The position numbers and the translations under genes are program-made. The notes beneath the pieces are model-generated. The model had not been told where the DNA came from. It worked only from the letters and a program-made list of their open reading frames with translations, and did no database searches. From Candidatus Solibacter usitatus (GTDB lineage Bacteria; Acidobacteriota; Terriglobia; Bryobacterales; Bryobacteraceae): a stretch of DNA of 53,048 nt. Positions 4,699 through 23,020 of this stretch are shown here, in pieces (position 1 is the first letter of the stretch; every line of letters begins with the position of its first letter). Location of the stretch: NCBI GenBank assembly GCA_016213245.1, contig JACRBC010000025.1, forward strand, positions 1 through 53,048. Direction: 5' to 3'.

Positions 4699-5892
4699 TC
4701 AGCGCGCATTCAGGAAGGCGATCAGGTCGGCCATCTCAGCGCCGGAGAAGACCGGCCAGGGAATCCTGCGCTTCTCCATCTCGCCCCGCATTCTCGGCCC
4801 GTGCTGCCAGAGGGCGGCCGCCATCCGGTGAGCGGAGAACTGGCCTCGGTTCTCATGCAGGCTCAGCGCTCCGGAACCAGGCTGGTCGTGGCAGGAGCCG
4901 CACTTCTTGGCGGCAAAAACACCGCGCCCGCGAGCGGGTTTGCCCTTTTCTTCGAAGTAGCGCTGGGCGAATAGATACGCCATCAATTGGCTCATCTCGT
5001 TCTCCGAGAAAGTCGGAAAATCAAACTGGACGGCGGCGGCGCGCTGGCGCATCTGAGGGAGGTGGTTCCACATGCGGACGCCGAGCTCGGTGAAAGTCCG
5101 GGCCGCGCGAGCGACACCCACCAGGTCGATTTTGCCGGTCTCCGGCGCTCCCAAGGTATGGCAACGGCCGCAGCCGCGCTCCCGGAAGACCTTCTCTCCT
5201 GCCAGCGGATCATCGAAGACCAGAGACGGCCGCTCGTCGGGCCGCTGGGGCAGGTTTCGAACATACACCAACAGGTCCACCATCTCCTGCAAGGTGAAGG
5301 TTGGCCAGCGAATGCCCCTCTTTTCAATCTCGGCCATCATGGCGCCGGAGTGATTCCACATGTGCTCGCTCCAGCGGATTCGATTCGCGATGGCCGGCCA
5401 CCTGGAGACAGGCGGCCCGGGACGCTTTCCCTCTTCCGGCGTGAGTGCGTGGCAGATGCTGCATTTCTTGACTGAAAACAGCGCCTTGCCCCGGCCGGCG
5501 TCGCCAGGCAGGTCAAAGTACCGGATGGAGTAGAAGTAGGCGTAGAGGTCGGCGATCTCTGTCGGCCCCAGGGACAGCACCGGCAGATTCCTGGCGGACA
5601 TCGCGCGCCACATGGCGGGCCCGTGATTCCACATCGAAGCGGCCAGAGTGGCGGGGGTGAAGTCCCGTGTCGAGCGCCGGGAAAGATCCGGCGCTGTTCC
5701 GCCACCGGCGCCGCGGATCGAATGACACAGAGTGCAGCTCCGGCGCTCAATCGACTCGGCGCCTCGCCGTGCGTCCCCATACTGGGCAAGTAGCGGCGCA
5801 GCCAGCAGGCCAGCCCCGGCGGCGCGTCGAAGGAAAAAGCCCCAGCGGCGAACTGGTCGCAACCAGGCGCGTATGACGGTCCTCGCGAGCAT
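4699..5892 (-). CDS. Tetraheme c-type cytochrome with four tandem modules
   Basis: 397 residues from the ATG at 5892, chosen because GGGGAGG stands five bases before it; the frame is open to 6006 but the extra N-terminus is arginine-rich and implausible. A signal-like hydrophobic stretch (residues 18-36) leads to four heme-binding sites: CTLCH (53), CSICH (144), CGRCH (241) and CGSCH (331). Each is followed about 35 residues later by a W-N/Q-H motif: MWNHGPAMW, MWNHSGAMM, MWNHLPQM, LWQHGPRM. The protein is therefore a fourfold repeat of a module of roughly 90-100 residues, probably periplasmic. It is the last gene of the bc-complex operon, 197 bp after the monoheme gene, and likely carries electrons between that complex and the outer-membrane conduit. 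Whether the conserved His or Met of the repeat ligates heme cannot be decided from sequence. Confidence 0.85.
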   Translation of the reverse strand: MLARTVIRAWLRPVRRWGFFLRRAAGAGLLAAPLLAQYGDARRGAESIERRSCTLCHSIRGAGGGTAPDLSRRSTRDFTPATLAASMWNHGPAMWRAMSARNLPVLSLGPTEIADLYAYFYSIRYFDLPGDAGRGKALFSVKKCSICHALTPEEGKRPGPPVSRWPAIANRIRWSEHMWNHSGAMMAEIEKRGIRWPTFTLQEMVDLLVYVRNLPQRPDERPSLVFDDPLAGEKVFRERGCGRCHTLGAPETGKIDLVGVARAARTFTELGVRMWNHLPQMRQRAAAVQFDFPTFSENEMSQLMAYLFAQRYFEEKGKPARGRGVFAAKKCGSCHDQPGSGALSLHENRGQFSAHRMAAALWQHGPRMRGEMEKRRIPWPVFSGAEMADLIAFLNAR

Positions 5893-6089
5893 AGTGCCTC
5901 CCCGGCGCCGGCGGCGGCGCCCATCCAACCTGGCCCGTTGATAACCAGCCGGATCCGTTCGGATGACTGTGCGATCACCGGCCGGCACCCCCAGATGGCG
6001 GTTCATTTCCAGATAGCATCCCCAGCGCAGCCCGGCGCCCGCCGCGGCGACGTGCCGCCTCGATCAGCCAACTCCCTCTCTGGTCCTCC

Positions 6090-6527
6090 CTAGTGCTCCT
6101 CCGTACTTCGCAGCGTTCTGAGATATGCGACCAGGTAGCGGATCTGGCGTTCATTCAGCGTATGTCCCCAGGGCGGCATCAGGTTGGACTTTCCCCGTTC
6201 CCGCCCGCCCCGGGAGATGGCCTCGGCGAGCTGCTGGTCGGCGATGCTCAGCATCACCGCCTGATCGGTCAGGTCTCTCGGCTTGGGCCTGAGGTTGAAG
6301 GCATTGAACCCATCCCCTTCGCCCGATGCGCCATGACAGACCACGCAATAGTGTTCAAAGAGCTTCTTCCCGTTGGCCTGTTCGTAATTGAAAACCGCCT
6401 CCTGTTTGGGCGATTCAGCGCCAGCCGCCTGCGCCGCCCCCCATCGCGCCCCGATCCGTTCAAGCAGCCATGGCGCTGCAACCACCACGGACATCGAGAC
6501 AAGCAGAACCAAAGGACGCTTTCTCAT
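6090..6527 (-). CDS. Membrane-anchored monoheme cytochrome c
   Basis: 145 residues. An N-terminal hydrophobic anchor (PLVLLVSMSVVVAAPWLL) is followed by one class I cytochrome c domain with CVVCH (heme) and LMPPWG, whose Met is the likely sixth ligand, then the C-terminal helix RQIRYLVAYLRTL. The start overlaps the stop of the octaheme gene by 4 bp (ATGA), indicating translational coupling. It probably shuttles electrons from the bc-type complex in the periplasm. Confidence 0.9.
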   Translation of the reverse strand: MRKRPLVLLVSMSVVVAAPWLLERIGARWGAAQAAGAESPKQEAVFNYEQANGKKLFEHYCVVCHGASGEGDGFNAFNLRPKPRDLTDQAVMLSIADQQLAEAISRGGRERGKSNLMPPWGHTLNERQIRYLVAYLRTLRSTEEH

Positions 6528-8503
6528 CTTTGTTCCTTTGCTCTCGGTGGCGGCAAACTCACCAGATAGGCGGTCAGGGCTCGCGCGTCGGAATCGTCGA
6601 TGGCGTAGTTGGGCTCAAGCACCGCCGGCTTGAATCTCTGCGGGTTTTTCAGGTAGGCGAATACATACCCGCTGAACAGGCGGCCGCCCAGGCCGTCCAG
6701 CGCCGGGCCTACGTATCCACCCGCGAGGTTTACCTGGTGGCATGCTTGGCAGCCGTACTTGTTGAAGTAGAGTTCCTTGCCGCGAGCGGCTTCCTGCAAC
6801 TCCGGTCCGCCCAGCGGAAACAGCTCGTGCGCGATGGAATCTTCCAGCAATACCGTCTCAAAATACCTGACCGTCGTTTGGATCTCCTGATCGGACATGC
6901 CCAGCAACGGCATTCGCTCCGTCATGATCGGCCGCATGGAATATGGCAGCCGGAAGTATGCGGCGATCCACAGGGGTTTCGCCTGGCTGCCGATGACGGA
7001 AAGATCCGGCGCCAGCCGTCCGCTCTCGCCGCTGAGGCTGTGACACGTCAGGCACTCGTACTTCCTCAGTATCTTTCCGAAATCTCCCTGTGTCCGGAGC
7101 GGGACTGGCTGTTGTCCCGCGGAGACATAGCGCGCCGGGATCTTCTTGTCCGACAGGGAAAGCAGCGCCACGACTAGCTCCCGAGCCTGTTCGTCGCTAA
7201 ACTGGAAATCCGGCATCTTGAGGTTCTTCCCAAAAACGCGCGGCGTCTTGATTTTCGTGAACAGCCAGGACCACAGGTTCCGTTCGATCCGCAAGTTCCC
7301 GAAATCCAGCCGATCCACGTCCTTGCTGCCGATTCCGGCCAGATCCGGGCCAAGTTCAGCCTGTTCCTCGATCTGCTTCAAGCGATGACAGCCCCCGCAT
7401 CCCAGCCGCTGGTAGAGCTTCTTGCCGGCCGCCAGATTGTCGCGTGTGGCGGCCGGGAGCAGGCGTTCCAGTTCCTGTTCCTGCTGGGCATCCACCGTGG
7501 AATCGGAGAACTCCGACGCGATGTAACTGACGATCGCCCGGATGTCCTTCGCCGGGAAGCTGAACTGTGGCATGCGGGTCTGCGGAAAGAGCGCTTTGGG
7601 ATCGCGCAGCCAGCTCTCCAGCCATTCCAGGCGTACCTTGCCGCCGACTCTGCCCAAGTCGGGTCCGGAGGATCCTCCCCGGCCGCCCTGCGCGTGACAA
7701 CTGATGCAGCGGGCCTCCCGATAGCGCTGTTGGCCCAGTTCCACTGCCGCCGCGTCCGCAACGAATGCGTTGCCGGTGGCGGGTGCCTTCTGGGACAGGA
7801 GGAACGTCGTCAACAGGCGCGCTTCCTCGTCCGCCAGCATGACGTTCGGCATGGACGTGCGCTCCAGGTACTCCTTCGGATTCTTCAGCCAGCGGAACAG
7901 CCACAGTGGCCTGACCTTGCTTCCAAGGCCATCCAGGTCCGGGCCGATGGGCCGGACGGGCGTCACGCCGGTGATCTTGTGGCAGCCGGTACATCCGGCC
8001 TTCCGAATCGTCTCCCGGCCCGCGCTCAGGATCCGGGCCTCGGGCACCGCCTCTCCCGGATGGCACTGCCCGCATGAGGCCTGCAGGTACTGGCTGGGCA
8101 GCATTGGATCTTCCCACCACTTCAGTCGCCCGTGCGCGCCCCGCACTGTGGTGGCCGCGCCCTGCCCCCGGTGGCAAACCGTGCAGCCGATCTCGCCCAG
8201 CCGGTGAGGCGTGACCGGATGAGACCGAAACGGCTGAGGCGCATCCCGCAGGAATCGGTTCTCAACACCCAGGTGGCAGGTGACGCACCGGTCCACGACA
8301 TCGAGCGCCGGGTTCCATACCTGCCGGATAGTCAGGGGCGTCGTCCGGACCGGAATGTTCTGCCGGAACTTCTCCTCGGCGAAACGGTTGAAGGCCTTCT
8401 GATACCGCCTCCATTCGGCAAGATAGTCGCGCACGGGCGTGACCGCATAGACCAGCAGCAGAGCCAGGCTCGACAGGCAAAACAACAATGAAATGCGTCG
8501 CAT
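6524..8503 (-). CDS. Octaheme membrane-anchored cytochrome c of a bc-type complex
   Basis: 659 residues. One N-terminal membrane helix (SLLFCLSSLALLLVYAV), then a triheme section with CVTCH (73), CTVCH (107) and CGQCH (144), then five class I-like cytochrome modules with CTGCH (171), CISCH, CGGCH, CLTCH and CQACH. Modules share a GPDLxGLGSK-like loop and an MP motif for the axial Met (SMPNV, RMPQF, KMPDF, RMPLL); the fifth has EPNY instead, so its sixth ligand is unclear. The gene sits immediately after the two cytochrome b genes, the place usually occupied by cytochrome c1, and so probably takes electrons from the Rieske protein. This is inference from gene order. Confidence 0.88.
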   Translation of the reverse strand: MRRISLLFCLSSLALLLVYAVTPVRDYLAEWRRYQKAFNRFAEEKFRQNIPVRTTPLTIRQVWNPALDVVDRCVTCHLGVENRFLRDAPQPFRSHPVTPHRLGEIGCTVCHRGQGAATTVRGAHGRLKWWEDPMLPSQYLQASCGQCHPGEAVPEARILSAGRETIRKAGCTGCHKITGVTPVRPIGPDLDGLGSKVRPLWLFRWLKNPKEYLERTSMPNVMLADEEARLLTTFLLSQKAPATGNAFVADAAAVELGQQRYREARCISCHAQGGRGGSSGPDLGRVGGKVRLEWLESWLRDPKALFPQTRMPQFSFPAKDIRAIVSYIASEFSDSTVDAQQEQELERLLPAATRDNLAAGKKLYQRLGCGGCHRLKQIEEQAELGPDLAGIGSKDVDRLDFGNLRIERNLWSWLFTKIKTPRVFGKNLKMPDFQFSDEQARELVVALLSLSDKKIPARYVSAGQQPVPLRTQGDFGKILRKYECLTCHSLSGESGRLAPDLSVIGSQAKPLWIAAYFRLPYSMRPIMTERMPLLGMSDQEIQTTVRYFETVLLEDSIAHELFPLGGPELQEAARGKELYFNKYGCQACHQVNLAGGYVGPALDGLGGRLFSGYVFAYLKNPQRFKPAVLEPNYAIDDSDARALTAYLVSLPPPRAKEQR

Positions 8504-8521: not shown

Positions 8522-9268
8522 TCATAGCTGCCACGGCCACACAAACGACCAGCCCGGTCCCCGGAATAGCGTGCCTACCACCGTCAGGATGACGGCCAGC
8601 GTGATAAACCAGCTCATGATCCACGCCGCCAGACTGAGACCGGCCAGCCCCGCGTGAACCCCGGTAAAGAACCGCGCCCAGGCTGTGCGATGGATCAGAA
8701 AGCCCCACAGGCCCCGCTCCCGGGAAGGGAAGATGCTGATCATAAGCAGCCCGATCAGCGCGGTCGGCGCCAGCGCGGCCCAAACCCGGAACCAGGCCAG
8801 GAACAGGATGAGGAGCAGAACACCCCCGGATAACCCGTACAGCCGGGCGGGGCGGCGTTGGCTCCACAGGCTGTCCCGTTCGAAGTTCACGCGAAAGTAG
8901 GGGATGATGATCAGGGCGATCACGACGAGTGCGGGGATCAGGACTCCGGCGACGACGGGAGGGAAGTAGTGCAGCAGCTCCTGAAGGCCCAGAAAATACC
9001 AGGGCGCCTTGGCCGGGTTTGGCGTCTTGTTGGGATTAGCCAGGCTCTCCAGCGGCGCGTCGTAGAACAGGGAGACAAGCCCGAGAACGATCAGCAGGAT
9101 CTCCATGGCGATCACCTCACGGACGATCAGGTGAGGGAATGTCATGACCAGCTTCTCTTCCGGAGCCTCCAGTCTGGCCGGAAGCTGCCGGTGCAACAAG
9201 GCAACCCGCTGCGGCAGGGTGGCCCCCTGCGAGCCGGATTCAACGTGCATTGAATTTTGTCCCGCCAT
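8522..9268 (-). CDS. Cytochrome b C-terminal part (subunit IV/PetD-like)
   Basis: About 248 residues with several membrane helices. Residues near the start (FPHLIVREVIAMEILLIVLG) and NPNKTPNPAKAPWYFLGLQE match the C-terminal half of split cytochrome b, including the PxW region near the quinol site where PEWY or similar is usual (here APWYFLG). Extra helices at the C-terminus (about residues 190-245) exceed subunit IV, which normally ends after three helices, so the protein is extended. ATG at 9268 or GTG at 9274 are both possible; GGGAGAAGAG lies just upstream. It is part of the bc-type complex with the preceding cytochrome b6-like and Rieske genes. Confidence 0.88.
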   Translation of the reverse strand: MAGQNSMHVESGSQGATLPQRVALLHRQLPARLEAPEEKLVMTFPHLIVREVIAMEILLIVLGLVSLFYDAPLESLANPNKTPNPAKAPWYFLGLQELLHYFPPVVAGVLIPALVVIALIIIPYFRVNFERDSLWSQRRPARLYGLSGGVLLLILFLAWFRVWAALAPTALIGLLMISIFPSRERGLWGFLIHRTAWARFFTGVHAGLAGLSLAAWIMSWFITLAVILTVVGTLFRGPGWSFVWPWQL

Positions 9269-9285
9269 TTGCACTCTTCTCCCGG

Positions 9286-10008
9286 TTACAGAGGCCGTAC
9301 GCCTCCGTCCTTTCTCACCCGCCAGAAGTGAACGGCCAGCAACACCGCGGCCGCCAGCGGCAAAACGACGCAGTGCAGCACGTAGAACCGCACAAGGGCG
9401 TTTTCGCCAATCACGTTCCCGCCGAGCAGGAGAAACTTGAACTTCGGACCGATCAATGGCGCCGCCTCCGCCATGTTCGTGCCGACGGTGATGGCCCAGA
9501 AGGCCAACTGGTCCCAGGGCAGAAGGTATCCCGTGTAGCTCAGCAGCAGGGACAGGATCAACAACAGCACGCCGACGACCCAGTTGAATTCACGGGGCGG
9601 ACGGTAGGCGCCGGAGTAGAACACGCGCGCCATGTGAAGAAAGACAAACAACACCATGGCGTGCGCCGCCCAACGGTGCAGATTGCGCAGCAAGGCGCCG
9701 GAAGTGACGACGAACTCCAGCTCCTTCATGTCCCGGTAGGCCTGAGGAATGGCCGGGCGGTAGTAGAACATCAGCAGCACTCCGGTCACGGTGAGAGCCA
9801 GAAACAGAGCAAATGACAGCCCGCCCAGGCACATCGTGTGCCGCAAGCGGAGGCTCTTCTCCGGAACCTTGACCGGGTGAATGTGGAGGAAAACGTTGCT
9901 GAAGACGGTCAGTGCCCGGTTGCGATTGGAATCCAGATAGCGATGCCGGAAGATGGAGCGCCACACGGGGGTCGCTACCACTCTCTCCTTGAGCTCCAGC
10001 ACGTTCAT
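9286..10008 (-). CDS. Cytochrome b N-terminal part (cytochrome b6-like)
   Basis: 240 residues with four core membrane helices. Heme b ligands are visible as paired histidines in helix B ([15 protein letters not shown]) and helix D ([20 protein letters not shown]). The [13 protein letters not shown] motif is diagnostic of cytochrome b. A GGGAGG ribosome-binding site precedes the ATG. Together with the PetD-like protein and the Rieske protein it forms a quinol:cytochrome oxidoreductase in the inner membrane. Split b subunits are known for b6f and many bacterial bc complexes. Confidence 0.95.
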
Positions 10009-10030: not shown

Positions 10031-10504
10031 TCACACCCTCAAGACCGCGTCTTTCTCCACTTCCAACTCCGAATCCACCACCAGTTCGCCGTCCTCCAAC
10101 CGGATGGCGATGCGCCGCAGGCCGCGCGTCGCCGGCCCCATCAACAGCGAGCCGTCCACGGCGAACTTGCTGCCATGACACGGGCAGAAGATGGCGCCCT
10201 CCTCCTCCACGTGCCTGGTGATGCAGCCGAGGTGTGTGCAGACCGCCGAAAGCGCGAAGAAGCCGACCTCGGTCCGCACGAGGTAGACCTTGCGCGCATA
10301 GTCCGCCGTGACCGAATTCACCGGAAAACTCTCCGGCCTTCCCACCCGGAAAGAGGAGGGAGGCTCAAACAGCACTTTCGGATGGACAAAATCGAGCATC
10401 ACGGCGGCGCCGCCGGCGCCCGCGGTGCCCAGCGCGCCGAGACCGGTGAACCACAGGAAGCGCCGGCGACCGGAGCCGGCCGCTTCAATTCGTTGACTGT
10501 CCAT
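10031..10504 (-). CDS. Rieske 2Fe-2S protein
   Basis: 157 residues. A twin-arginine-like N-terminus with a hydrophobic anchor ([20 protein letters not shown]) suggests Tat export of the folded cluster protein. The cluster motifs are CTHLGC and CPCHGS, giving the two Cys and two His ligands plus the stabilising disulfide cysteines. It moves electrons from quinol at cytochrome b to the cytochrome c partner, here probably the octaheme protein. GGAGG stands five bases before the ATG, and the gene lies 18 bp after the oxidoreductase gene. Confidence 0.95.
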
Positions 10505-10522: not shown

Positions 10523-12391
10523 TCACGCCACCAGCACGCCGGATTCCACCAGAAAACTCTCCATGGTGATGCAGCCCACTGGGCAGCGCTGCTCGCACAA
10601 GCCGCACCGGATACACCGGTCTTCGTTCTTGATCAGGACCGCGGCGATCTGCTCGCCGTCGGCGCCGAGCTCGGCCCGGAACTCGTTTTCCAGTTCCTGC
10701 CGGAGTTGCCCGTCGCCGGCCAGCCAATCGGCGGGCCCCAATGCCAGGCAGTCTTCGGGGCACACATCCACGCACCCGGCGCACAGGATGCACTCCGAGC
10801 TTGTCTCCTCGGTCCCCTCAAAAATCGTGTTGACCCAGCACTGCAAGCAGCGATTGGCTTCGCGCAGTGCCTGCTGTTCGCTGTATCCCAGGTCGATTTC
10901 GGCGACCCCGATGCGCCGGTCGATCGGCAGCGTGGGAACTTTCACACGGGAACAGGACTCGTAGATGGGATCGCGCTTCCAGGCGTGCGGCGGGAACACC
11001 GCGATCTTCACTGAACGGGGCCGGGCCGGCGCCATTCCACTGAGGAACTGATGAATCGAGGCGGCGGCGCGGCGCCCATCGGCCACCGCTTCGATCACAT
11101 TCCGCGCGCCAAAGGCCACATCGCCGCCCGCAAATACCCGCGGGTCGCTCGTGGCGAGCGTGACCGGATCGACCTCGAGCGTGCCGCGCGGCGTCACATC
11201 CAGGCCATCTTCGGGCTCGATGAAGGTGAGGTCTGAAGTCTGACCGATCGCCAGGATGATGGTTTCGGCCGGCATGGTCTCCTCACTGTTGGGATGGAAC
11301 TCGGGGTTGAAGCGTCCCAAAGCGTCGAAGACCGACTTGACCGCAATGGTCTCCAGCCCGCAGACACGGCCTTCCTCCCCCACGATCCTCTTCGGACCAA
11401 GAGAACTGTGGATCACGATCCCTTCGTGCTGCGCCTCCTCAACTTCGTCCTGGAAAGCGGGCATCTCTTCCCGCGATTCCAGGCAGACCAGGCTCACTTC
11501 CCGCGCGCCCATCCGCAGCGCGAAGCGGGCCGCGTCCAGGGCGCTGTGCAAGTAGCGGTCCGGCTCCACGTACTCATCTTCGTTAAAGCGCAGCACTGAG
11601 CGCGCCACATCCACGGCTACGTTGCCGCCCCCCACCACCACCACCTTACGGCCCAGATCCACCCGGTAATTCAGGTTCGCGTTGAGCAGGAAATCCACAC
11701 CTTGGAGCACGCCGTCCAGGTGGACTCCCTCGATCCGCAGCTCGCGGCTGCGATGGGCGCCGATAGCCAGGAAGACGGCCGAGTAGTCCTGCTCCCACAA
11801 GTGACGCAGCCAGAAGTCCCGCCCCAGGCGGTGGTTTACTTTCAACTCCACGCCCAGGCTCAGCACCCAGTCCACCTGCGCCTGGACGATGTAGCGCGGC
11901 AGCCGGTATTCGGGGATCCCCAGCGCCAGCATGCCGCCGGCCACGGGAGCGGCCTCGAAGATGATGACCCGATAGCCCAGCTTGGCCAGGTCGGTGGCGG
12001 CGGAAAGCCCGGCGGGGCCCGCCCCCAGCACCGCGATCTTGGGCCCGCTGAGCTTCTTGGGCGTGCGCATGGTCGAGACGATTCGCTGCCGCCCCAGCTT
12101 GCTGTAAGGACCGAATTGCTCGGCCACGAATCGCTTCAGCGCGCGAATGGCTACCGGCTGGTCGATCCGCCCGCGCCTGCACGCCGCTTCGCAGGGAGCC
12201 GCGCAGACATGGCCGCAAATCGCCGCCAGTGGATTGGGCTCCTCGGCGACCGCATAGGCTGCCTCGAAGCGGCCCTCCGCAATCATCGCGCAGTAGCGCC
12301 CCGCCTGCGTCCTGACCGGGCAGGCCTGGGAACAGGGAACGTTCCCTTCGAGCCATTCCAGGTTCACCAGCTTCATGGACCGGCTCGCCAT
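10523..12391 (-). CDS. FAD-dependent NAD(P) oxidoreductase with Fe-S domains (GltD-like plus ferredoxin)
   Basis: 622 residues. The N-terminus has the four-cysteine Fe-S region of GltD-like proteins (CSQACPVRTQAG, CGHVCAAPCEAAC). Two dinucleotide folds follow: FAD (KIAVLGAGPAGLSAATDLA, near residue 118) and NAD(P) (KVVVVGGGNVAVDVARSV). The C-terminus carries a 2x4Fe-4S ferredoxin-like domain (CILCAGCVDVCPEDC and CIRCGLCEQRCPVGC). It should exchange electrons between NAD(P)H and another carrier in the cytoplasm. Its place between cupredoxin and Rieske genes suggests it links pyridine nucleotide to the quinone/bc complex, or accepts electrons in reverse. It has no membrane segment, so how it docks is open. 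Confidence 0.88.
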   Translation of the reverse strand: MASRSMKLVNLEWLEGNVPCSQACPVRTQAGRYCAMIAEGRFEAAYAVAEEPNPLAAICGHVCAAPCEAACRRGRIDQPVAIRALKRFVAEQFGPYSKLGRQRIVSTMRTPKKLSGPKIAVLGAGPAGLSAATDLAKLGYRVIIFEAAPVAGGMLALGIPEYRLPRYIVQAQVDWVLSLGVELKVNHRLGRDFWLRHLWEQDYSAVFLAIGAHRSRELRIEGVHLDGVLQGVDFLLNANLNYRVDLGRKVVVVGGGNVAVDVARSVLRFNEDEYVEPDRYLHSALDAARFALRMGAREVSLVCLESREEMPAFQDEVEEAQHEGIVIHSSLGPKRIVGEEGRVCGLETIAVKSVFDALGRFNPEFHPNSEETMPAETIILAIGQTSDLTFIEPEDGLDVTPRGTLEVDPVTLATSDPRVFAGGDVAFGARNVIEAVADGRRAAASIHQFLSGMAPARPRSVKIAVFPPHAWKRDPIYESCSRVKVPTLPIDRRIGVAEIDLGYSEQQALREANRCLQCWVNTIFEGTEETSSECILCAGCVDVCPEDCLALGPADWLAGDGQLRQELENEFRAELGADGEQIAAVLIKNEDRCIRCGLCEQRCPVGCITMESFLVESGVLVA

Positions 12392-15122: not shown

Positions 15123-15138
15123 AGCACCTTGAGTGCCA
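15123..15138 (-). promoter_or_regulatory. Sigma-54 (-24/-12) promoter of the mtrC-bc operon
   Basis: On the minus strand TGGCACTCAAGGTGCT gives a perfect TGGCAC -24 element, the required GG-N10-GC spacing and a GTGC -12 element. Predicted start of transcription is near 15112, leaving about 48 bp of leader before the ATG at 15064. An NtrC-type activator with GAFTGA is encoded nearby. Confidence 0.65.
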
Positions 15139-15233
15139 AAGGGCTTTGAGACCGTTTCATCGGCGATCCACGCCCGATCTCGCGTAATCAGGCCACCTGG
15201 CTGCCCGTTCTGCGCCTTCCGCGGCTGCAGGGC

Positions 15234-15249
15234 GTGACAAAAACGTCAC
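15234..15249. promoter_or_regulatory. Putative enhancer palindrome for the NtrC-type regulator
   Basis: GTGACAAAAACGTCAC contains inverted GTGAC/GTCAC arms separated by AAAAAC. It is centred about 130 bp upstream of the predicted sigma-54 start, a usual distance for an upstream activating sequence. TGTCACAC half-sites also occur twice upstream of mtrA. Confidence 0.45.
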
Positions 15250-15266
15250 AGCGCCGCATTGCAAAC

Positions 15267-16733
15267 TCACTGTTTCGCCCGTTGAGCCGCCCCGCGCATC
15301 TGTTTTTCCATCTCCTGGATTCGCTCCAGACTCCTCTCGAGGCGCGCAAAGCCCTCCCAGAAGATGTCACCCGGCGACTGGTGGAACGCCGCCAGGCGGA
15401 TGCGGGCATTCTCCCGGAACGCCATCTCCAGGAAGGCACGCTCGATCGCCAGCAACGGTCGGCTCTCGCCGGCGCCCGTCTCCGTTCCGCCAACGGCCTG
15501 ATAGCGGCTGATCAGAACCGGCACTGTCGAAGGCAGCAGACCGTCGCGAGCCAGTCCCTCCAGGATCGCCCGTGCCTGAAGCACCAGCAGGTCCGACGAC
15601 AGCTTGACCTCGTCGCTGGCATTCAGGTAGTCGCCGGCGAATTTCTCCGAATGGCAGTTCCGGCAGACCAGGATCATGGCCTTCCTCTTGCCGTCCGATT
15701 GCTGGCGAAGTTGCTGGAACGCGGCTTTGTAACCGGCTTCGGACGCCTGGCCCTCCGGCGCCATCACCGCCTGGAGACCCCGGCCCCAAACGCTCTTGTC
15801 GCTCAGCTTATGGGTGACCGCGACGTCCCCGTATCGCTCCGCGCGCAGCATGTGACAGGTGGCGCAGGTGGGCGCCGCATATCCTCCGGAAGTGAGCGCC
15901 GCGGGCATCCGCGATTTCCAGTCCCAGTTGACTCCGTCCGACCGGTAGATGGATCCGTGTTTGGATTGCAGATAGGCCTCGGCCAGCGAATTGGCCGCCC
16001 GGCCGTGGCACGTCTGGCAGCTCTCCGGCCGGCGGGCTTCGGCTACGTCAAACCGGTGGCGCGTGTGGCAGGAATCGCAGCCGTTGCGGTGGATGAGGCC
16101 GGTTTTTTCAAACTCCGGATCCGGATCGAAGTAGGGGGGCTCGGTGGCTCCTTGCTGGGAAAACACCACATCGCGGCTCAGTTGCAGTACGGCGGACGGA
16201 ACCCGCCGGAATTCCGGCGCCGCCAGGGCGCCCGTCCAGTACTGTTCCGGCGGCGCCGAGCTGTGGCCTCCGCTCTTTTCGTATTCCTTGTCCACGCTTT
16301 CGTGACAGCCGGCGCAAACCGCATTGGCGACGCGGCCGCGCGTTTCCGTAATGGTGGTGTGGTTGTCGCCGTGGCACAGCACACAACTGATCTGTCCGTT
16401 GCGGACGAGGAACGCCTTGCGGCGCTCGGTCTTTTCCTTCGGCGCCCGCAGCCTTTTCACCTCGTCGAAGACGGTTTGGTTCTGGATGCCGCGCCTCCCC
16501 ATGGTGCTGGACAGGAAGGCCGCCACCGCGTTCGGGTTCACTTTCAGGTGGCACTTGATGCACTGCCCCACCTCCTGGACGCCTTGCGGCTCCTTGATCT
16601 CCACCACGATCCCCGGCGGCTGGGCCGGCAAACGGGCGCCCCAGGCCGCCGCCAGCAGCACGACGCTGAAAACGCGCGGTCCCAAAGTGGTCCGCGCCAG
16701 TGCCCCATCGTTCTCTCTATGTAATTGCCTCAT
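15267..16733 (-). CDS. Heptaheme periplasmic cytochrome c (seven CxxCH, HAO-like family)
   Basis: 488 residues with a signal-like N-terminus (VFSVVLLAAAWGARLPAQ). Seven heme sites: CIKCH, CVLCH, CAGCH, CDSCH, CQTCH, CATCH and CRNCH, followed by a helical C-terminal third (about 150 residues) with no heme. The spacing and the C-terminal helices are like the multiheme family related to hydroxylamine oxidoreductase and cytochrome c-554. HAO itself has eight hemes, so the catalytic site is not assumed. It is the third gene of the mtrA-mtrB operon, 23 bp after the barrel gene, with AGGAG before its ATG, and likely serves as an extra periplasmic electron relay or a reductase. Confidence 0.85.
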   Translation of the reverse strand: MRQLHRENDGALARTTLGPRVFSVVLLAAAWGARLPAQPPGIVVEIKEPQGVQEVGQCIKCHLKVNPNAVAAFLSSTMGRRGIQNQTVFDEVKRLRAPKEKTERRKAFLVRNGQISCVLCHGDNHTTITETRGRVANAVCAGCHESVDKEYEKSGGHSSAPPEQYWTGALAAPEFRRVPSAVLQLSRDVVFSQQGATEPPYFDPDPEFEKTGLIHRNGCDSCHTRHRFDVAEARRPESCQTCHGRAANSLAEAYLQSKHGSIYRSDGVNWDWKSRMPAALTSGGYAAPTCATCHMLRAERYGDVAVTHKLSDKSVWGRGLQAVMAPEGQASEAGYKAAFQQLRQQSDGKRKAMILVCRNCHSEKFAGDYLNASDEVKLSSDLLVLQARAILEGLARDGLLPSTVPVLISRYQAVGGTETGAGESRPLLAIERAFLEMAFRENARIRLAAFHQSPGDIFWEGFARLERSLERIQEMEKQMRGAAQRAKQ

Positions 16734-16756: not shown

Positions 16757-19003
16757 CTAAAAGACGTAGCCCAGCGATACCGACCAGATATGGACCCGGT
16801 ACCGAGGGAGAGCCATCCCTAGAAACAGGGCATCGCCCGCTCCCGCACCCGTCAAACCGGAGAAAGGAAGGGCCTGCTCGAGCGCCGCATCTGCTGCCCT
16901 GTATCTTTCATAGGCGTACTCGAAACGGTAGGAAATGCTGTTTGTCAAAGCGAACTTCGCGGAAACCGCCAGCCGCTGGAACCGGTTGCTTACGCTTGGA
17001 TAATCCTCGGCCTGCGGCGCGAAAGCCCCCGCCGCGGGTCTACTCAGCGCCTTGGTCGCCGTGAGGCTCTCGCCCTCCGAAAAGCCGTAATGAAGGTCCG
17101 CCACCAGCCGGTTGCGGAACAGTCCGGCATTCAGGCCCCCACCCCACGTATGAACCGCGTCCCGGACGTTGCTTTCCCAATCGCCGCCCGCCGAATCGTA
17201 GGCTGGCACGGCGAGGGAAGCATCGAGCCGCTGCCGCGAGCGCAGGGCGTAGCGGATCCGCTCATATGTGTAATCGCCGAACAGGGAGATGGAGGGCGCC
17301 AGCAGATAGGAGACATCGCCGGTGGCCGAATCGTTCAGGTCATGCAGCGCGCCGTACCCGGACTCGTTGAAGAACGACCGGTCCACCGTGTAAGCGGCCG
17401 AAGCAGAGAGGGTCTCGGTAACCGGCGCCTGCAATGTGACCGTTCCGTAATTCCGAGTCCGCGCGGCTTGGTCGGCTCTGCGCAGCCCCCGCAACTGCGG
17501 CAAGGCAAATGCGCTTGTTCCCGCTGGAAACGACGCCAGGAAGTAGTCAGGATCATATTGCTCTGGCCGGCGGCGGGAGTGCTGAATCAGGGCGTTCAAT
17601 GCCCACCCGCCCCGGTTCATCCAATCCCAGCCCACCCCGCCAATGTGCTCGTTGGAGCGCCGCGCCTCGCGGTAGGTGCGATCCATGGCCTCCCATTGAT
17701 AGAACCATCGCGCCACCGAAGTCTTGCCCGGCTCCCACATCCACTCCAGGTTGAGGTTCTGTTTCGTATAGGCGTAGGGGAGATTGCGCCGGCTGCCGGG
17801 TGACGCCTCGGAGAAAACGGAGGGAGAGGAGTCGTAGGGCACATAGCTCGAAAACCGCAGGCTCGGAGTCTCGTTGTCCAGACGGTAGGAGCGGTAGCGG
17901 GCCGTATAGGCGAACTGCTTGCCGGCCTTGCCCGACAGCAGGTAGTTCATCATCAGGGTCTGCTTGCTGCCCTGCAAACTGGCCGCCGGCAGGGACGGGA
18001 AGCCCGGCCGCGACTGGGTCGCCGGATCGATGGTGAAAGGCAGGAAAGCCTCGTTCTGCCGCATCCACCCCGGAGCCACGGTAGCAACGATCCTGGCCGA
18101 TTGCGTCAGGTCCAGCGCGCCCGAAAACGCGAAACTCTGAGCCGTGTTGTCAGGGGCCAGCGCCCGGCGTCCGGCTCCTCCCGTCACGCCCGGCTGAAGG
18201 AGTCCGGACCATTCCAGTGCCTTCACCTCGTTGTGAAAGAGCGAACTCTGAGACGACGCCTGTACTACCCACCTGGGCTTGGCTACCTCGGCGCTCGCCT
18301 TCACGCTGCTGGTCCTGTACTGGACGGGCTCCGGCAGCTCCACCACCGTGAAGCCCGATGTGTTCCCGCTGGGTCGAAAACCCGTCCGGCGTTCCGGGGA
18401 GTACTCCAGGCGCAGGTCCCACGCTTCGTTGGGCGTCACCTGCACGCCCAGCCCCACCGAGTTGCGCTCAATCGTGAGGTTTTGGACCGGCGCCCCCTGC
18501 AAAGCCTGGAACTGACCGGGCAGGGTGAACCGGCCCGGGCCGGAGCGAACGTAGAAGTTGCGGCCGGCCGTCGCCTCAGTGTGGGGGAGGCGGCTCCAGG
18601 TCCCCGTGACCTTGAATTGCCCGGGTACTCCCGCTCCGGCCAGCACATTCAAGTCCTTTTCGGAGTTCTGCCGGGATTGCAGGTCGAAATAGGCGCCGCC
18701 GCGGGGCAACTCGGTGTGCAGGGCAAGGTTCCGGATGAAAAAGCCGGTCGGGAGATCCCGGTACTCAGAGAACTTGGCCACCCCGGTATCCCCGGCGGTC
18801 TTTCTGACTCCGACCTCCAGGAAGGTCCACCCCGGAAACAGGCGCAGAGGCACGCCGTTGGCTCCCGCCGCGGAGGGCTTTGGCTGTGGCGGCCGGTCGT
18901 TCGGGACGGCGAGCTGGGCGAAGACAGTCCCGGACAGGAGGCACAAGGCCAACAGGAAGCTGGGAAACGTTCGCGTCGTGCCGTGGCGTTGCCGTCGGTT
19001 CAT
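16757..19003 (-). CDS. MtrB/PioB-type outer-membrane beta-barrel
   Basis: 748 residues from the ATG at 19003, chosen because a signal peptide follows (FPSFLLALCLLSGTVFAQ); the longer frame starts inside the intergenic gap. The body is rich in alternating beta strands and ends in aromatic-terminated SVSLGYVF, the usual C-terminal barrel signature. Stretches such as NEAWDLRLEYSPERRTG and VVELPEPVQYRTSSVKAS match the family of MtrB/PioB proteins, which form the porin sheath around an MtrA-type decaheme. It follows mtrA by 20 bp. Together they should conduct electrons across the outer membrane. Confidence 0.88.
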   Translation of the reverse strand: MNRRQRHGTTRTFPSFLLALCLLSGTVFAQLAVPNDRPPQPKPSAAGANGVPLRLFPGWTFLEVGVRKTAGDTGVAKFSEYRDLPTGFFIRNLALHTELPRGGAYFDLQSRQNSEKDLNVLAGAGVPGQFKVTGTWSRLPHTEATAGRNFYVRSGPGRFTLPGQFQALQGAPVQNLTIERNSVGLGVQVTPNEAWDLRLEYSPERRTGFRPSGNTSGFTVVELPEPVQYRTSSVKASAEVAKPRWVVQASSQSSLFHNEVKALEWSGLLQPGVTGGAGRRALAPDNTAQSFAFSGALDLTQSARIVATVAPGWMRQNEAFLPFTIDPATQSRPGFPSLPAASLQGSKQTLMMNYLLSGKAGKQFAYTARYRSYRLDNETPSLRFSSYVPYDSSPSVFSEASPGSRRNLPYAYTKQNLNLEWMWEPGKTSVARWFYQWEAMDRTYREARRSNEHIGGVGWDWMNRGGWALNALIQHSRRRPEQYDPDYFLASFPAGTSAFALPQLRGLRRADQAARTRNYGTVTLQAPVTETLSASAAYTVDRSFFNESGYGALHDLNDSATGDVSYLLAPSISLFGDYTYERIRYALRSRQRLDASLAVPAYDSAGGDWESNVRDAVHTWGGGLNAGLFRNRLVADLHYGFSEGESLTATKALSRPAAGAFAPQAEDYPSVSNRFQRLAVSAKFALTNSISYRFEYAYERYRAADAALEQALPFSGLTGAGAGDALFLGMALPRYRVHIWSVSLGYVF

Positions 19004-19023: not shown

Positions 19024-19980
19024 CTAGCGGTGTAAGCGCACTCCTGAAGGGTGATTGGAGCCGTGAATCTGCGAGTGGCAGTTGGCGCACCCCAGGTTGT
19101 AGATCAAACGATTGGCGGCCGGCTGGGGCAGCGTCGAGTGGCCGGCTCGCATATGGCAGCGTTGGCACAGGCGCGGCGGCCTCACCTTCAACAGCGCGGC
19201 ATGCACCGATCCATGCGCCTCATGGCAGTTCAGGCAATCCTCAGCCACCGGAGGATGTTCCCAAAGGAACGGTCCTCTCTTTTCCGCGTGGCAGCGGTAG
19301 CAGTTCTCGTTCACCGAGTTCTCCGTCAGCAGCTTGGGTGTCGCCGTCCCGTGCGGGTTGTGGCAGTCGACGCAGGTCAGTTTGCCCTCCCGGAGCGGCA
19401 TGTGAGAAGACCGTTGGAGCCGCGCCTTCTGCACCAGATGGCATTGAAGGCAGATCTCCATGCTCGTTTGCTTGCGCAACAGGCGCGTCTCCAGCGGCCG
19501 CTCCTGGTAGCGCAGCCCCGGTTGCGGGGTCTCCGCTTTCTTGTGCAGCGTATGGCACCTGGTGCAGGTGATGTTGCGGGATTCGTGCGCGCTGCCGCGC
19601 CAGTACAGCCGCCGGCCGCGCTCGTGGCACTTCAGGCAGGCCCTCTCAATGGTCTCGGCCGGACTGCCGGTGAACCGGGAGATCAGAGCGCGATCGCCCG
19701 ACTGCACGTGGTCAACGCCAGACCCGTGGCAGGCCTCGCATCCCCGCTGTGCCGGAGCACCCCGCAAGCGGCCGTCCATCCGGGCATGAGTGGAAACGGC
19801 CCACGTCTCGTAGTAAGCCTGGTGGCATCGCCGGCAGGTCTCGGGGGGAATGGCGACCGCCTCCCCCCTCGGCGGCGAGCTGGGAGGCGTCTGGGCGTTC
19901 AGGCCAGCGGCACAGAGGGCGCACAGCAGCCATCCGGCCCAACACTGTTCCCTCGCTGGTCGCGGCAATGGCACACGCAT
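19024..19980 (-). CDS. MtrA/DmsE-type periplasmic decaheme cytochrome c
   Basis: 318 residues with a signal peptide ending near AAGLNAQ. Ten CxxCH sites are present: CRRCH (49), CEACH, CLKCH, CTRCH, CLQCH, CVDCH, CYRCH, CLNCH, CQRCH and CANCH. Length and spacing match the MtrA/DmsE/PioA family, a wire-like cytochrome held inside an MtrB-type barrel. It is the first gene of the mtrA-mtrB-heptaheme operon. Regulatory sites lie in the 270 bp upstream, between it and the response-regulator gene. Confidence 0.92.
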   Translation of the reverse strand: MRVPLPRPAREQCWAGWLLCALCAAGLNAQTPPSSPPRGEAVAIPPETCRRCHQAYYETWAVSTHARMDGRLRGAPAQRGCEACHGSGVDHVQSGDRALISRFTGSPAETIERACLKCHERGRRLYWRGSAHESRNITCTRCHTLHKKAETPQPGLRYQERPLETRLLRKQTSMEICLQCHLVQKARLQRSSHMPLREGKLTCVDCHNPHGTATPKLLTENSVNENCYRCHAEKRGPFLWEHPPVAEDCLNCHEAHGSVHAALLKVRPPRLCQRCHMRAGHSTLPQPAANRLIYNLGCANCHSQIHGSNHPSGVRLHR

Positions 19981-20085: not shown

Positions 20086-20100
20086 TAAGGCAGCCGCCGC

Positions 20101-20116: not shown

Positions 20117-20252
20117 TCCCGCACGCCTCTCTGCGGCGGCTTTGTCACACCTCGGGAGGCCGCTTTGGAAGCCGCACACCCAAACCACGCCACACCACGG
20201 GGTATTCATGCGCGAAACCCGGTGTTGCCGTTCTGTCACACTCCGCCGGACT

Positions 20253-21674
20253 TTAACCGCGCTCCGGCGCCGGCTGAGAGCGGTAGCCTCGGGAATCGAT
20301 CCCGTACTTGCGCATCAGGCGGTGGAAGGCGGCGCGATCCATCCCGGCGACCTTAGCCGCTTCGGTCACGTTCCCTTTGGTGCGCGTCAACAGTTCGGCG
20401 ACGCTCTGCCGTTCGAAGGACTCAACGTTCCTTCGCTTCTCGTGGCGAAATCCAGCGCCTATGTTCCGCGACTCCCGCAGCAGTTCCTCTGGAAAGTCCA
20501 GCGGAGAGAGATACTGTTCGCTGCTGATGGAAACAGCGCGCTCGATCACATTGCGCAGCTCTCGCACGTTGCCGGGCCAGGGATACTGCTCCAGCACGAG
20601 CAGGGCGGCCGCTGAAATCCCCAGCACCCGGGCATTCGCTCGCCGCGCGCAGGCGTCCAGATAATGACGGGCGAGCAGGGGGATGTCCCCGGGTCGTTCC
20701 CTGAGAGGCGGCAGCCGGATGGCCAGCACGTTCAACCGGTAATACAGGTCGTCGCGGAATCTCCGGGCGGCCATCATCTCCTCCAGCTTCTGATGCGTGG
20801 CCGCCATGATCCTGATGTCCAGACCCACAAAATCGTGGCCGCCCACGCGCCGGATCTGCCTTTCTTCCAGACTGCGCAGCAGCTTCACTTGAGTGAAGAG
20901 ACTCAGTTCCCCCACTTCGTCCAGGAACAGCGTGCCGCCGTTGGCCAGCTCGAGCAGTCCCCGTTGCTGGCTCACCGCCCCGGTAAAGGCGCCCCGCTCG
21001 TGCCCGAATAGCTCACTCTCCAGCAGCGGCTCGGGAAGAGCGGCGCAGTCCACGGGGATAAAGGGCCCGCGCGCCCGCGCACTGTTGGCGTGGATGGCCT
21101 TCGCCAGCATCTCTTTCCCGGTCCCGGTCTCGCCCAGCAGGAGGACGTTCGCGTCACCCTGCGCGGCGCAAGCGGCCGTGCGCACCATCTCCTTCACCGG
21201 CTCGCTCGCGCCGATAATGGTGCTGAAGTCCATCGTGGCCGTCCGGTCGGAAGCGGCTCGCTCAGGCCGCGTCATCCGATCCCGGTACTCAAAGGCCCTC
21301 TGCAGAATCGTCCGCAACTCTTCGGTGGTGAAGGGCTTGCGCAGGTAATCAAACGCTCCGGCGCGCGTGGCCGCGATGGCCGTTTCTATGGTCGCGTAGG
21401 CGGTGATCAGGATGACGATCGTGTCCGGCGCCAGCGCCTTGATCGCCCGCAGCAGGGTCAAGCCGTCCGTCTCCGCCATCTTGAGATCGGTCAGCACGAC
21501 GGGCGGGCGGGCTTGCCGGAAAACCTCCAGGCCGATAGCGCCGGAGGCGGCGGTCAGGCAGCAGTAACCCAGGCGCCGCAAAATCGCCGCGCAATCGTCG
21601 ACGAAGTCGGCCTCGTCGTCGATGAGCAGAACGCAGACGTCGGAGCTTGCTTCCACCTTCTGTGCGAGAGCCAT
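20253..21674 (-). CDS. NtrC-family sigma-54-dependent response regulator
   Basis: 473 residues in three domains. Receiver: acidic pair at 19-20, phospho-acceptor Asp 63 (VVLTDLKM), Thr and Lys switch residues (ITAYA, RKPFT). AAA+ domain: Walker A GETGTGKE (181-188), GAFTGA (228-233) for contact with sigma-54, Walker B TLFLDE, and arginine fingers in the PLRERPGDI region. C-terminal Fis-type helix-turn-helix: NVTEAAKVAGMDRAAFHRL. It is transcribed divergently from the histidine kinase and lies directly upstream of mtrA in the same direction. It probably activates the two cytochrome operons, one of which has a good -24/-12 promoter. Confidence 0.93.
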   Translation of the reverse strand: MALAQKVEASSDVCVLLIDDEADFVDDCAAILRRLGYCCLTAASGAIGLEVFRQARPPVVLTDLKMAETDGLTLLRAIKALAPDTIVILITAYATIETAIAATRAGAFDYLRKPFTTEELRTILQRAFEYRDRMTRPERAASDRTATMDFSTIIGASEPVKEMVRTAACAAQGDANVLLLGETGTGKEMLAKAIHANSARARGPFIPVDCAALPEPLLESELFGHERGAFTGAVSQQRGLLELANGGTLFLDEVGELSLFTQVKLLRSLEERQIRRVGGHDFVGLDIRIMAATHQKLEEMMAARRFRDDLYYRLNVLAIRLPPLRERPGDIPLLARHYLDACARRANARVLGISAAALLVLEQYPWPGNVRELRNVIERAVSISSEQYLSPLDFPEELLRESRNIGAGFRHEKRRNVESFERQSVAELLTRTKGNVTEAAKVAGMDRAAFHRLMRKYGIDSRGYRSQPAPERG

Positions 21675-21688
21675 CGCTGTCCCGCCCC

Positions 21689-23020
21689 ATGATACAATAC
21701 ACCGCCGTCGCCTTTATGCTGTCGGTGCGGAGGGACCCAGTTCTTTCCAGATTCTCTGCAACGGACAGGTTTTTTGCCGGTTTGCGCGTCGCCACCCTCG
21801 CGGTGGGCGCCGTCTGGCTTCAGCTCGCGCCGCATCTGCCCTATCGCCGCCCGCTCGCCGGGCTGTTGGCCGCCTCCGCGGTGTATTCGCTCCTGATCTA
21901 CAGTCTCATTCTGCGGACCCGCTGGCCCGTCGCCCGCATCTACCTCGTAACCGCCCTCATCGATCTTCTCTTTCTCTTCAGGTTGGTCCGGTGGGCCGGC
22001 GATGCCAGCGGCGTCTTCGTGCTCGGCTTCTACCTGCTGGTGGCGCTGCACAGCTTCTATTTTGGACGCCGCGTTGGACTCCTGATCGCCGCCGTTGCGG
22101 CCGTGCTCCTGGTCCTGGCTGGTCTGAATGTCTCTCCTTCGGAGCCGTGGTTTTACTCCCTGGTGCGGGTTGGCTTTTTATTCGTCACTGCATCGTCCAC
22201 CGGGCTCTTGGCTGATCGGGAAAGGCAGGCCAGGCAACGGGCCGAACAACTGCTGGAGGAACTGAAAAACACCACCCGCATGTTGGAACAGGCCCAGAAG
22301 ATGGCTCTGATCGGACGGCTCACCGCCGGCATCGCGCATGAGATCAACAATCCGGCGGCCGTGGTCCTCACCAGAGTGGCGCGCATGTTGCTTGAGTCCG
22401 AAGAAAGAGGCTACTCAGCGGACCTGAAGCAGGACCTGGTAACCCTGCAAAACCATGCGCGGCGCGTGGCCGGCGTAGTGCAGAAAATGCTTACTTACTC
22501 CAGACCCGACGCTTCGGGCTTCTCGCCCCTCAACATCAATGAAGTCATCCAGCAGAGCATGCCGCTGATTGAGCACCGCCTGAAGAATCGCCAGCTTACC
22601 CTGAACCTCAACCTGCTTCAGCGTTTGCCCCGCATCTACGGCAACGCCAACCGGCTGGAGGAGGTGTTCGTGAATCTGCTCACCAACGCCATCGACGCCT
22701 CCTCTCCCGGGGGACAGATCTACATCGTGAGCACCATCACTGGAGGCCCGGACAAAGCAGTGCAGGTTTTCGTTTCCGACGGTGGGGAAGGGATCTCGCC
22801 GGAAAACCTCGACAAGATCTTCGAACCCTTCTTCACCACCAAGCCTCCCGGCGATGGTACCGGCCTGGGCCTGTACATCACCTACCAAATCCTGAGTGAC
22901 CACCGGGCTTCCGTTTCCGTAGACAGCGAAACTGGAAAGGGAACGTCTGTTTCCATTCGCTTCCCGCTCTTGAAAGACGCGATGCATTCCTCCCTCCTGC
23001 CGCCCGCGGGTGCTCGGTAG
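21689..23020 (+). CDS. Membrane sensor histidine kinase
   Basis: About 443 residues from the ATG at 21689; an ATG at 21716 is equally possible and none has a clear ribosome-binding site. The N-terminus has about six membrane helices with very short loops and no periplasmic domain ([78 protein letters not shown]). A short coiled linker leads to the kinase core: phospho-His in [12 protein letters not shown]-box [11 protein letters not shown]-box DGGEGI and GTGLGLYI. It pairs with the divergent NtrC-type regulator, starting only about 14-40 bp away. With its signal perceived in or near the membrane, quinone or redox state is a possible cue. Confidence 0.9.

Follow-up and report, generated by a model that had tools for sequence, protein, structure and literature searches.

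We describe here a gene cluster in which a Rieske/cytochrome b complex of the type found in anammox bacteria is probably the inner-membrane partner of an MtrCAB outer-membrane conduit, the two forming an extracellular electron transfer module. The cluster lies in a 53,048-nucleotide stretch of DNA from Candidatus Solibacter usitatus (contig JACRBC010000025.1; the whole stretch is referred to below as the window), which is contig C133 of genome G000, a 3.83 Mb metagenome-assembled genome (MAG) of an uncultured member of the Acidobacteriota that is 78.6% complete. Eleven minus-strand genes run head to tail from position 19980 to 6090 and encode MtrA, MtrB, a heptaheme cytochrome (H7), MtrC, a cupredoxin (cup), an FAD/Fe-S oxidoreductase (FAD), a Rieske protein (R), the two halves of cytochrome b (bN and bC), an octaheme cytochrome (O8) and a monoheme cytochrome (m1). 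These genes, their neighbors and the candidate regulatory sites are as follows.

21647..23020, plus strand: sensor histidine kinase, divergent from the regulator, with HisKA and HATPase_c domains and a weakly PilS-like membrane part; start codon uncertain.
20253..21674, minus strand: NtrC-type sigma-54 activator with receiver, AAA+ and Fis helix-turn-helix domains (PF00158 E 6.9e-67, PF00072, PF02954).
20223..20240, no strand assigned: candidate activator site, dyad TGTGAC-N6-GTCACA with 2 mismatches, from a pattern scan.
20132..20149, no strand assigned: second copy of the dyad in the ntrC-mtrA gap, 2 mismatches, from the same scan.
19024..19980, minus strand: MtrA-type decaheme cytochrome c with 10 CXXCH motifs (TIGR03508, 245 bits, cut-off 192).
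16757..19003, minus strand: MtrB/PioB outer-membrane barrel (PF11854 E 6.5e-87; TIGR03509, 269 bits, cut-off 240).
15267..16733, minus strand: H7, heptaheme cytochrome of the hydroxylamine oxidoreductase (HAO) family (PF13447, 128 bits, cut-off 22; PDB 4fas E 1.5e-32).
15233..15250, no strand assigned: dyad TGTGAC-N6-GTCACA with 1 mismatch, the sole site in the window with at most one.
15124..15138, minus strand: sigma-54-like -24/-12 element TGGCACTCAAGGTGC, 59 bases before mtrC.
13043..15064, minus strand: OmcA/MtrC-family decaheme cytochrome with 9 CXXCH and one CX3CH, no lipobox (TIGR03507, 460 bits, cut-off 209).
12408..13004, minus strand: cupredoxin (PF00127) carrying a type-1 copper motif and, at its C terminus, a CarboxypepD_reg/fn3-like domain.
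10523..12391, minus strand: FAD/NAD(P)/Fe-S oxidoreductase subunit (PF07992, PF14691, PF12838) with a GltD/Nfn-like core and a C-terminal ferredoxin domain.
10031..10504, minus strand: Rieske [2Fe-2S] protein (PF00355; best PDB match 9rk4, E 2.4e-22).
9286..10008, minus strand: cytochrome b6-like subunit, bN (PF00033 E 3.4e-44; NF040969 ExtP, 286 bits against a cut-off of 290).
8522..9274, minus strand: subunit IV-like C-terminal subunit of cytochrome b, bC (PF00032, 22.5 bits against a cut-off of 20.7).
6524..8503, minus strand: octaheme cytochrome c in the place of cytochrome c1/f, with 8 CXXCH motifs and an N-terminal hydrophobic segment (residues 4-22) that is an anchor or a leader.
6090..6527, minus strand: monoheme cytochrome c (PF00034), overlapping the octaheme gene by 4 bases.
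4699..5892, minus strand: tetraheme cytochrome of a family that recurs beside mtrAB elsewhere.

All genes listed in an earlier note on this DNA, including the NtrC/kinase pair adjacent to mtrA, are present, open and homologous to the families named there, as judged by open reading frame and profile searches. The gaps between successive genes from mtrA to m1 are 20, 23, 202, 38, 16, 18, 22, 11, 18 and -4 bases, followed by 197 bases to the tetraheme gene, with refined starts at about 19003 for mtrB and about 5892 for the tetraheme gene. We take the 202-base gap, which splits mtrA-mtrB-H7 from mtrC through m1, as the boundary between two operons. The arrangement is that of two modules, apparently in one regulon. 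Rfam and tRNA scans of the window gave no match.

The gene order recurs in other genomes, where the earlier note had proposed to look for it, and the possibility that it is unique to this contig was rejected. Contig L020 (NC_groundwater_13, also numbered L032), which belongs to the Acidobacteria groundwater MAG G011 of the same family as the window genome, carries the kinase, NtrC, mtrA, mtrB, H7, mtrC, cup, FAD, R, bN, bC, O8 and m1 genes in the same order (identities to the window of 61% for MtrB, 81% for FAD, 73% for the octaheme protein and 64-65% for the kinase orthologue). Contig L022 (NC_groundwater_987) keeps the order from a cut ntrC to the FAD gene, where the contig ends (78% for MtrA, 63% for MtrB and 84% for FAD). 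The common order is thus held at 59-89% protein identity over the three contigs. The MtrA of L020 has nine CXXCH motifs, one position reading CXXCN, and shares one open frame with ntrC. The earlier name of decaheme for the OmcA/MtrC protein is fair, its CX3CH position being CXXCH in L020 and CX3CH in L022.

Two candidate regulatory elements precede mtrC in all three contigs; the dyad and the relaxed sigma-54 pattern used here were both chosen after viewing the sequences. The dyad TGTGAC-N6-GTCACA has one mismatch in the window, none in L020 and one in L022, where it lies inside the end of H7, and these are the only sites with 0-1 mismatch, one per contig. Two weaker copies stand between ntrC and mtrA in both the window and L022; in the window these belong to five sites with two mismatches, the other three lying elsewhere. 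Counted with up to three mismatches, the dyad occurs 11 times in the window, below the shuffle mean of 16.7, 10 times in L020 (mean 6.4, reached in 11 of 100 shuffles) and 8 times in L022 (mean 3.15, reached in 2 of 200). A sigma-54-like element precedes mtrC by 59 bases in the window, 64 in L020 and 36 in L022, and reads TGGCATCAAAGCTGC in the H7-mtrC gap of the latter two. The relaxed pattern has five matches in 171 kb of strand, three of them in these three gaps. Since the sigma-54 consensus is found 47 times in the whole window against a shuffle mean of 62, only the position and conservation of these sites carry weight. A sigma-70 promoter scan of the window gave 1 site against 1.9 in shuffles.

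Terminator-like sites on the same strand between mtrC and m1 fall inside bN and bC and none lies between genes. Because the dyad and the sigma-54-like site precede mtrC, an NtrC-type activator is encoded nearby and no intergenic terminator-like site was found, mtrC and the complex down to m1 are probably transcribed together. The joining of the Mtr genes to a bc-type complex, as the earlier note had put it, holds in so far as one regulon with mtrC is apparent from the shared candidate sites and from gaps of at most 38 bases between mtrC and m1.

The conduit half was said to be complete, and the profile matches of MtrA, MtrB and OmcA/MtrC are indeed all above cut-off. With the MtrB/PioB barrel gene directly beside mtrA (20-base gap), gene content supports the prediction that MtrCAB of the window is an outer-membrane electron conduit; its MtrB is the single match to the MtrB profile in the window genome. 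No lipobox was seen in the MtrC of the window, L020 or L022. The heptaheme cytochrome named in the earlier note is present, and to that description we add a relationship to HAO (PF13447, and PDB 4fas over residues 48-480). The CXXCH motif aligned to HAO residues 229-233, the position of the catalytic P460 heme, is missing in H7 of all three contigs, and on this ground an ordinary active HAO was rejected. Since homology to HAO is combined with loss of the catalytic heme motif, H7 appears to have kept the HAO fold for use as a wire.

MtrCAB in the Bryobacterales has already been published, in a survey that explicitly notes the lack of an inner-membrane quinone oxidoreductase near it (PMC8805035). 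The window resembles the 'Group 5' MtrCAB of the Acidobacteriia/Bryobacterales described there in having MtrA, MtrB and MtrC in one cluster with a tetraheme gene nearby, and differs from it in H7 after mtrB and in the Rieske/cytochrome b complex after mtrC.

In the second half, all 29 relatives compared have both Rieske boxes, CTHxGC and CPCHGS, as well as Ser112, and the usual Tyr is Phe in 28. bN and bC are separate genes; His111, His125, His212 and His227 of bN, the presumed b-heme ligands by comparison with b6, are invariant in all 29. Trp92 and Tyr93 of bC are likewise found in 29 of 29, the Glu position of the PEWY motif being Pro (28) or Ala (1). In the FAD protein, which has Nfn and GltD relatives in PDB, 17 Cys are conserved in 29 of 29 relatives. 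The type-1 copper motif is present in 40 of 40 cupredoxins examined, the window included; the C-terminal CarboxypepD_reg/fn3-like domain of the cupredoxin occurs in the four relatives aligned as well.

Among the closest described systems are those of anammox bacteria. The PDB search with the Rieske protein placed 9rk4 first and 9rk3 third, which are Kuste4569 and Kustd1480 according to PMC12954380. The anammox complexes Kuste4569-4574 and Kustd1480-1485 of that source share with the window a Rieske protein, a b6-like cytochrome b, a subunit IV-like protein and an unusual FAD/Fe-S NAD(P) oxidoreductase. They likewise have a hexa- or octaheme cytochrome and, in one set, the HAO-like Kuste4574, where the window has H7, without the catalytic heme position; the window set adds an outer-membrane conduit and a cupredoxin. 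The proposed acceptor would be extracellular for the window complex, whereas it is nitrite for the anammox complexes (PMC12954380). His42 of bN, invariant in 29 of 29 relatives, is a candidate counterpart of His43 of Kuste4571, described there as a ligand for a proposed extra dimer heme. The Rieske pair of the anammox complexes was measured at +303 and +335 mV, and the authors favor, as a proposal, a bifurcation at the quinol from which NAD(P)H would be one of the products (PMC12954380). Because the same subunit set occurs in complexes with this published proposal, a link of the window complex to NAD(P)H is plausible by analogy.

By NCBIfam profiles alone, the complex also resembles ExtP, ExtQ and ExtS of a selenite/tellurite operon, with all matches of the window below cut-off (ExtP 286 vs 290, ExtQ 47.5 vs 150, and the octaheme ExtS 88 vs 100 bits). 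It would occupy the same place, between the quinol pool and periplasmic cytochromes, as the three quinol-oxidizing families that a 2018 survey named as the only ones then known; as described in that survey, none of the three is a Rieske/cytochrome b complex. The earlier proposal of a bc-type complex with an octaheme cytochrome for cytochrome c1 stands, with the complex being b6f-like, but its wording 'rather than CymA' is too firm, because weak NapC/NirT-family matches are present in the genome.

We analyzed a set of 396 Acidobacteriota genomes, with FAD matches in 161 of them; a second FAD search matched 57 of 121 genomes. Forty FAD loci were chosen among the better matches of the first search and 18 came from the second; two stretches of the window's own genome, L032, L021, L022 and the window brought the total to 64, and 63 were counted after L193, without an FAD gene, was dropped. 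Some loci come from the same genus (L072, L074, L084), so the counts are not independent. The complete order cup-FAD-R-bN-bC-O8-m1 is present in 33 of the 63, the window and L032 included. No mtr genes stand beside the complex in the 40 loci of the first search, and the idea that the complex is a private part of Mtr was rejected on this count. It is rather an Acidobacteriota module that is not peculiar to Mtr, and its octaheme type (35 loci) normally lies beside a Cyc2-like gene.

MtrB was found in 72 of the 396 genomes (E <= 1e-20), and 60 MtrB loci were chosen from the matches listed. Eight of them (L114, L118, L121, L133, L147, L151, L156 and L158) have a different Rieske/cytochrome b set, without FAD, at most 6.2 kb from mtrB (in L133 and L156 on the opposite strand), mostly with a multiheme gene of 7-11 hemes (22 in one, no separate gene in L151). 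A ninth locus, L153, has an FAD-type set 12.4 kb away, in a stretch fetched so as to include it, and the remaining 51 have no Rieske/cytochrome b pair. With two cytochrome b matches in the 3.83 Mb of the window's own genome, a rough estimate of the chance expectation is below one in 60 loci. As judged from gene neighborhoods, the FAD-less sets connect MtrAB to a bc-type complex independently. The same association of mtrB with an FAD-less Rieske/cytochrome b set was observed in L027 and L028, which came from another search.

The partner of the octaheme type in most loci was defined by a Cyc2 pattern (AXPXFAR[Q/K][T/Y], CXXCH and PXL in a protein of more than 365 aa), used in strict and relaxed versions. 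Among the 35 octaheme-type loci, a Cyc2-motif gene lies on the same strand at a distance of up to 4.5 kb in 26 and further off in two (L080, L085), the gene of L078 misses the pattern by one residue, two have mtrAB (window, L032) and four end within 2.3 kb upstream; all 31 loci that are not cut within this distance thus carry an outer conduit gene. Over the 63 FAD loci, 36 Cyc2-like genes lie nearby, 20 by the strict pattern. Beside the octaheme-type complex the products are 419-615 aa long (n=25) and begin with a hydrophobic leader and a single heme motif near the N terminus; the last residue is F, Y or W in 24 of these 25. Two of 11 gave weak Porin_O_P matches, and PDB porin P was matched weakly at E 0.41. 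The motif is described as unique to Cyc2 by Keffer et al. (PMC8406198), and the relatives' neighbor gene shares with the fused cytochrome-porin of that paper both the motif and a porin-sized body, while the window has no such gene. Five of the six loci of a 6-heme subtype (L096, L097, L188, L189, L190) also have a Cyc2-like neighbor, and kinase and NtrC genes precede it as a pair in all five; in the sixth, L101, the upstream sequence is limited to 2.2 kb. L093 and L100 have no partner module among those tested.

The two conduits appear to replace each other on the same complex. No Cyc2-motif gene occurs in 1.115 Mb around 67 mtr loci, and a Cyc2-like family profile has no match in the genomes of the window, L020 and L022; it has one match each in G512, G028 and G087. 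The FAD protein of G512 is the closest found outside the trio (62%), its operon contains a Cyc2-like gene, and G512 has no MtrB at E <= 1e-20. In a FastTree phylogeny of FAD, Rieske and bN, from which L022 was left out for too little sequence, window and L020 together join G512, both nodes having support of 1.00 and the next node 0.50. The wider clade is mostly of the octaheme/Cyc2 type and also holds L093, L094 and L100 without Cyc2, while the octaheme Cyc2-type loci L088 and L089 fall outside it. Because the three Mtr genomes have no Cyc2-like gene and the nearest Cyc2-type relative has no MtrB, the simplest reading, which these data suggest, is that the outer conduit was exchanged on an inner complex that was kept.

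These distributions bear on the possibility that the halves are mere neighbors, a kinase-NtrC-mtrA-mtrB cassette (with H7 and mtrC) having come to lie beside a housekeeping bc complex while the conduit uses another quinol oxidase. The separate occurrence of the halves in the 40 FAD loci and 51 MtrB loci above speaks for it, as do the cassette without the complex in L112 and the NapC/NirT-family matches elsewhere in G000. We nevertheless regard it as improbable, given the order kept in three contigs at the identities stated, the same candidate sites before mtrC, the lack of a Cyc2-like match in the three Mtr genomes and a conduit gene at every one of the 31 uncut octaheme-type loci.

In the proposed mechanism, a quinol, presumably menaquinol, would be oxidized at the P-side quinone site. 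One electron would pass from the Rieske protein to the octaheme cytochrome, the monoheme cytochrome and/or the cupredoxin, the heptaheme cytochrome, MtrA, MtrB, MtrC and finally an extracellular acceptor, and the other from the b hemes through Fe-S clusters and FAD to NAD(P)+. We infer both the electron exchange between the two halves and the order of carriers. NAD(P)H as the product, for which the anammox proposal is the analogy, we consider an even chance. A broader and more tentative idea, which we hold to be somewhat improbable as a whole, is quinol-based bifurcation whose high-potential electron is drawn off across the outer membrane by a solid or an electrode outside the cell, which would pay for NAD(P)+ reduction inside. 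The same engine, common in Acidobacteriota, would work, depending on its subtype, with N2O reductase, cbb3 oxidase, a molybdenum (Mo) enzyme, a Cyc2-like porin or MtrCAB.

The direction of flow is best approached through the sister complexes. In the 5-heme subtype, nosZ lies on the same strand, 0-219 bases from the multiheme gene, in eight of nine loci (L090, L091, L092, L095, L098, L099, L178, L191), with nosD further on, and the ninth (L104) has cbb3 genes. In the 7-heme subtype, three of five loci (L102, L103, L195) have cbb3 oxidase genes on the same strand, and the other two (L094, L192) have, directly after the multiheme gene, a Mo-oxidoreductase of the dimethyl sulfoxide reductase family that may act as a reductase or as an oxidase, one of these being the window genome's own second complex. 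The queries for these neighbors came from L091, L103 and L192, which match themselves. A search of 36 genomes found RuBisCO large subunit in three, and none of the Mtr trio has it, other carbon-fixation routes not being searched; autotrophy by RuBisCO was dropped as a purpose for this reason. Because the sister complexes adjoin nosZ, cbb3 and Mo-enzyme genes and RuBisCO is rare, outward electron flow appears likely. In the window genome, the search for COX1-family genes gave a single one, for a nitric oxide reductase (G000:C19, L193:7175-9382), and no heme-copper oxygen reductase, at a genome completeness of 78.6% and with bd oxidases not being searched.

Electron uptake is the converse: electrons from Fe(II), a mineral or another cell would pass through MtrC and MtrA to the cupredoxin, acting as rusticyanin does, and the octaheme cytochrome, and a Rieske/cytochrome b complex reversed by proton motive force would deliver them to quinone and, by some route, to NAD(P)+. 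The cupredoxin adjacent to the complex fits this scheme, rusticyanin being found with Cyc2, and so does the published Cyc2 motif in the usual partner gene. Cyc2 was shown to oxidize iron in two acidophiles and, when expressed heterologously, that of one neutrophile does so as well (PMC8406198), and the pet operon of A. ferrooxidans holds a putative NADH-linked gene, sdrA (PMC10654088). Because nosZ and cbb3 genes stand beside sister complexes, we hold uptake, a reading suggested by Cyc2, to be unlikely. By our reasoning a reversed quinone site would consume low-potential electrons from the FAD side and not make them, and the scarcity of RuBisCO given above also counts against uptake. It is in metal reducers that surface cytochromes of the MtrC type are best known, which again disfavors it.

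A third alternative keeps the outward direction and lets the FAD subunit feed electrons in from NAD(P)H, the complex being an NAD(P)H-oxidizing branch to the extracellular acceptor. Direction is not set by sequence, and flavoproteins of the Nfn/GltD type, to which the PDB relatives of the subunit belong, can work both ways. Such a branch would forgo energy conservation by complex I, an argument also made for the anammox complexes (PMC12954380), and we consider it distinctly unlikely.

Several observations weigh against the proposed partnership of MtrCAB with the Rieske/cytochrome b complex, its outward direction or the exchange of conduits. All known examples of the Mtr version lie on three related contigs, each from a MAG and one from a genome that is only 78.6% complete, and L022 has about 680 extra bases between mtrC and the cupredoxin gene. 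Cys60 of bN, presumably equivalent to b6 Cys35, the holder of heme cN, is kept in only two of 29 relatives. NapC/NirT-family matches occur in nine of nine genomes tested, weakly in that of the window, and leave a CymA-like route open. Structure predictions gave no usable fold for H7 from three sequences (predicted local distance difference test, pLDDT, 35) or for the Cyc2-like protein of L021 from a single sequence (pLDDT 32); 16 of the 36 Cyc2-like proteins meet the relaxed motif only, and their barrels are putative. Both conduits can coexist in a genome, as MtrB was found in six of 36 other genomes searched (a set that took in G177, not one of our FAD genomes), and G028 and G087 have both MtrB and a match to the Cyc2-like profile. 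Ferric oxides at neutral pH may be too weak an oxidant for NAD+ reduction from menaquinol, judging by the potentials. Finally, Cyc2, the usual partner, is known as an Fe(II) oxidase (PMC8406198), which would argue for electron uptake.

Outer-membrane components are often what reveals extracellular electron transfer, with the partner in the inner membrane staying hidden. The locus supplies a candidate inner partner for the MtrCAB of Acidobacteriia, for which the survey found none adjacent (PMC8805035), and this candidate could conserve energy and yield NAD(P)H. Exchange between a Cyc2-like protein and MtrCAB would mean that outer conduits behave as interchangeable parts, which bears on the use of cyc2 and mtr as markers of direction; if one may go by the neighbors of the sister complexes, a Cyc2-like gene in Acidobacteriota would not automatically indicate iron oxidation. 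Among the matches listed in a literature search (titles and openings of abstracts, with subscription journals thinly covered), no paper connects an NAD(P)-linked Rieske/cytochrome b complex with MtrAB or Cyc2 in Acidobacteriota, which is weak evidence of novelty.

Some minor observations concern the tetraheme gene and other Mtr loci. The tetraheme gene is not at the corresponding place in L020. A contig end from G002, of the same genus as the window (L033), carries the last 86 aa of an MtrB-like protein with a tetraheme gene directly after it, an order also described for the published Group 5 MtrCAB (PMC8805035). Elsewhere in the genome of L022 there is another MtrB match, stronger than the first, at G557:C197:12000-13955 (L200), and L146 (G405) has near mtrAB a gene for a protein with 8 hemes and a weak relationship to H7 (70 bits).

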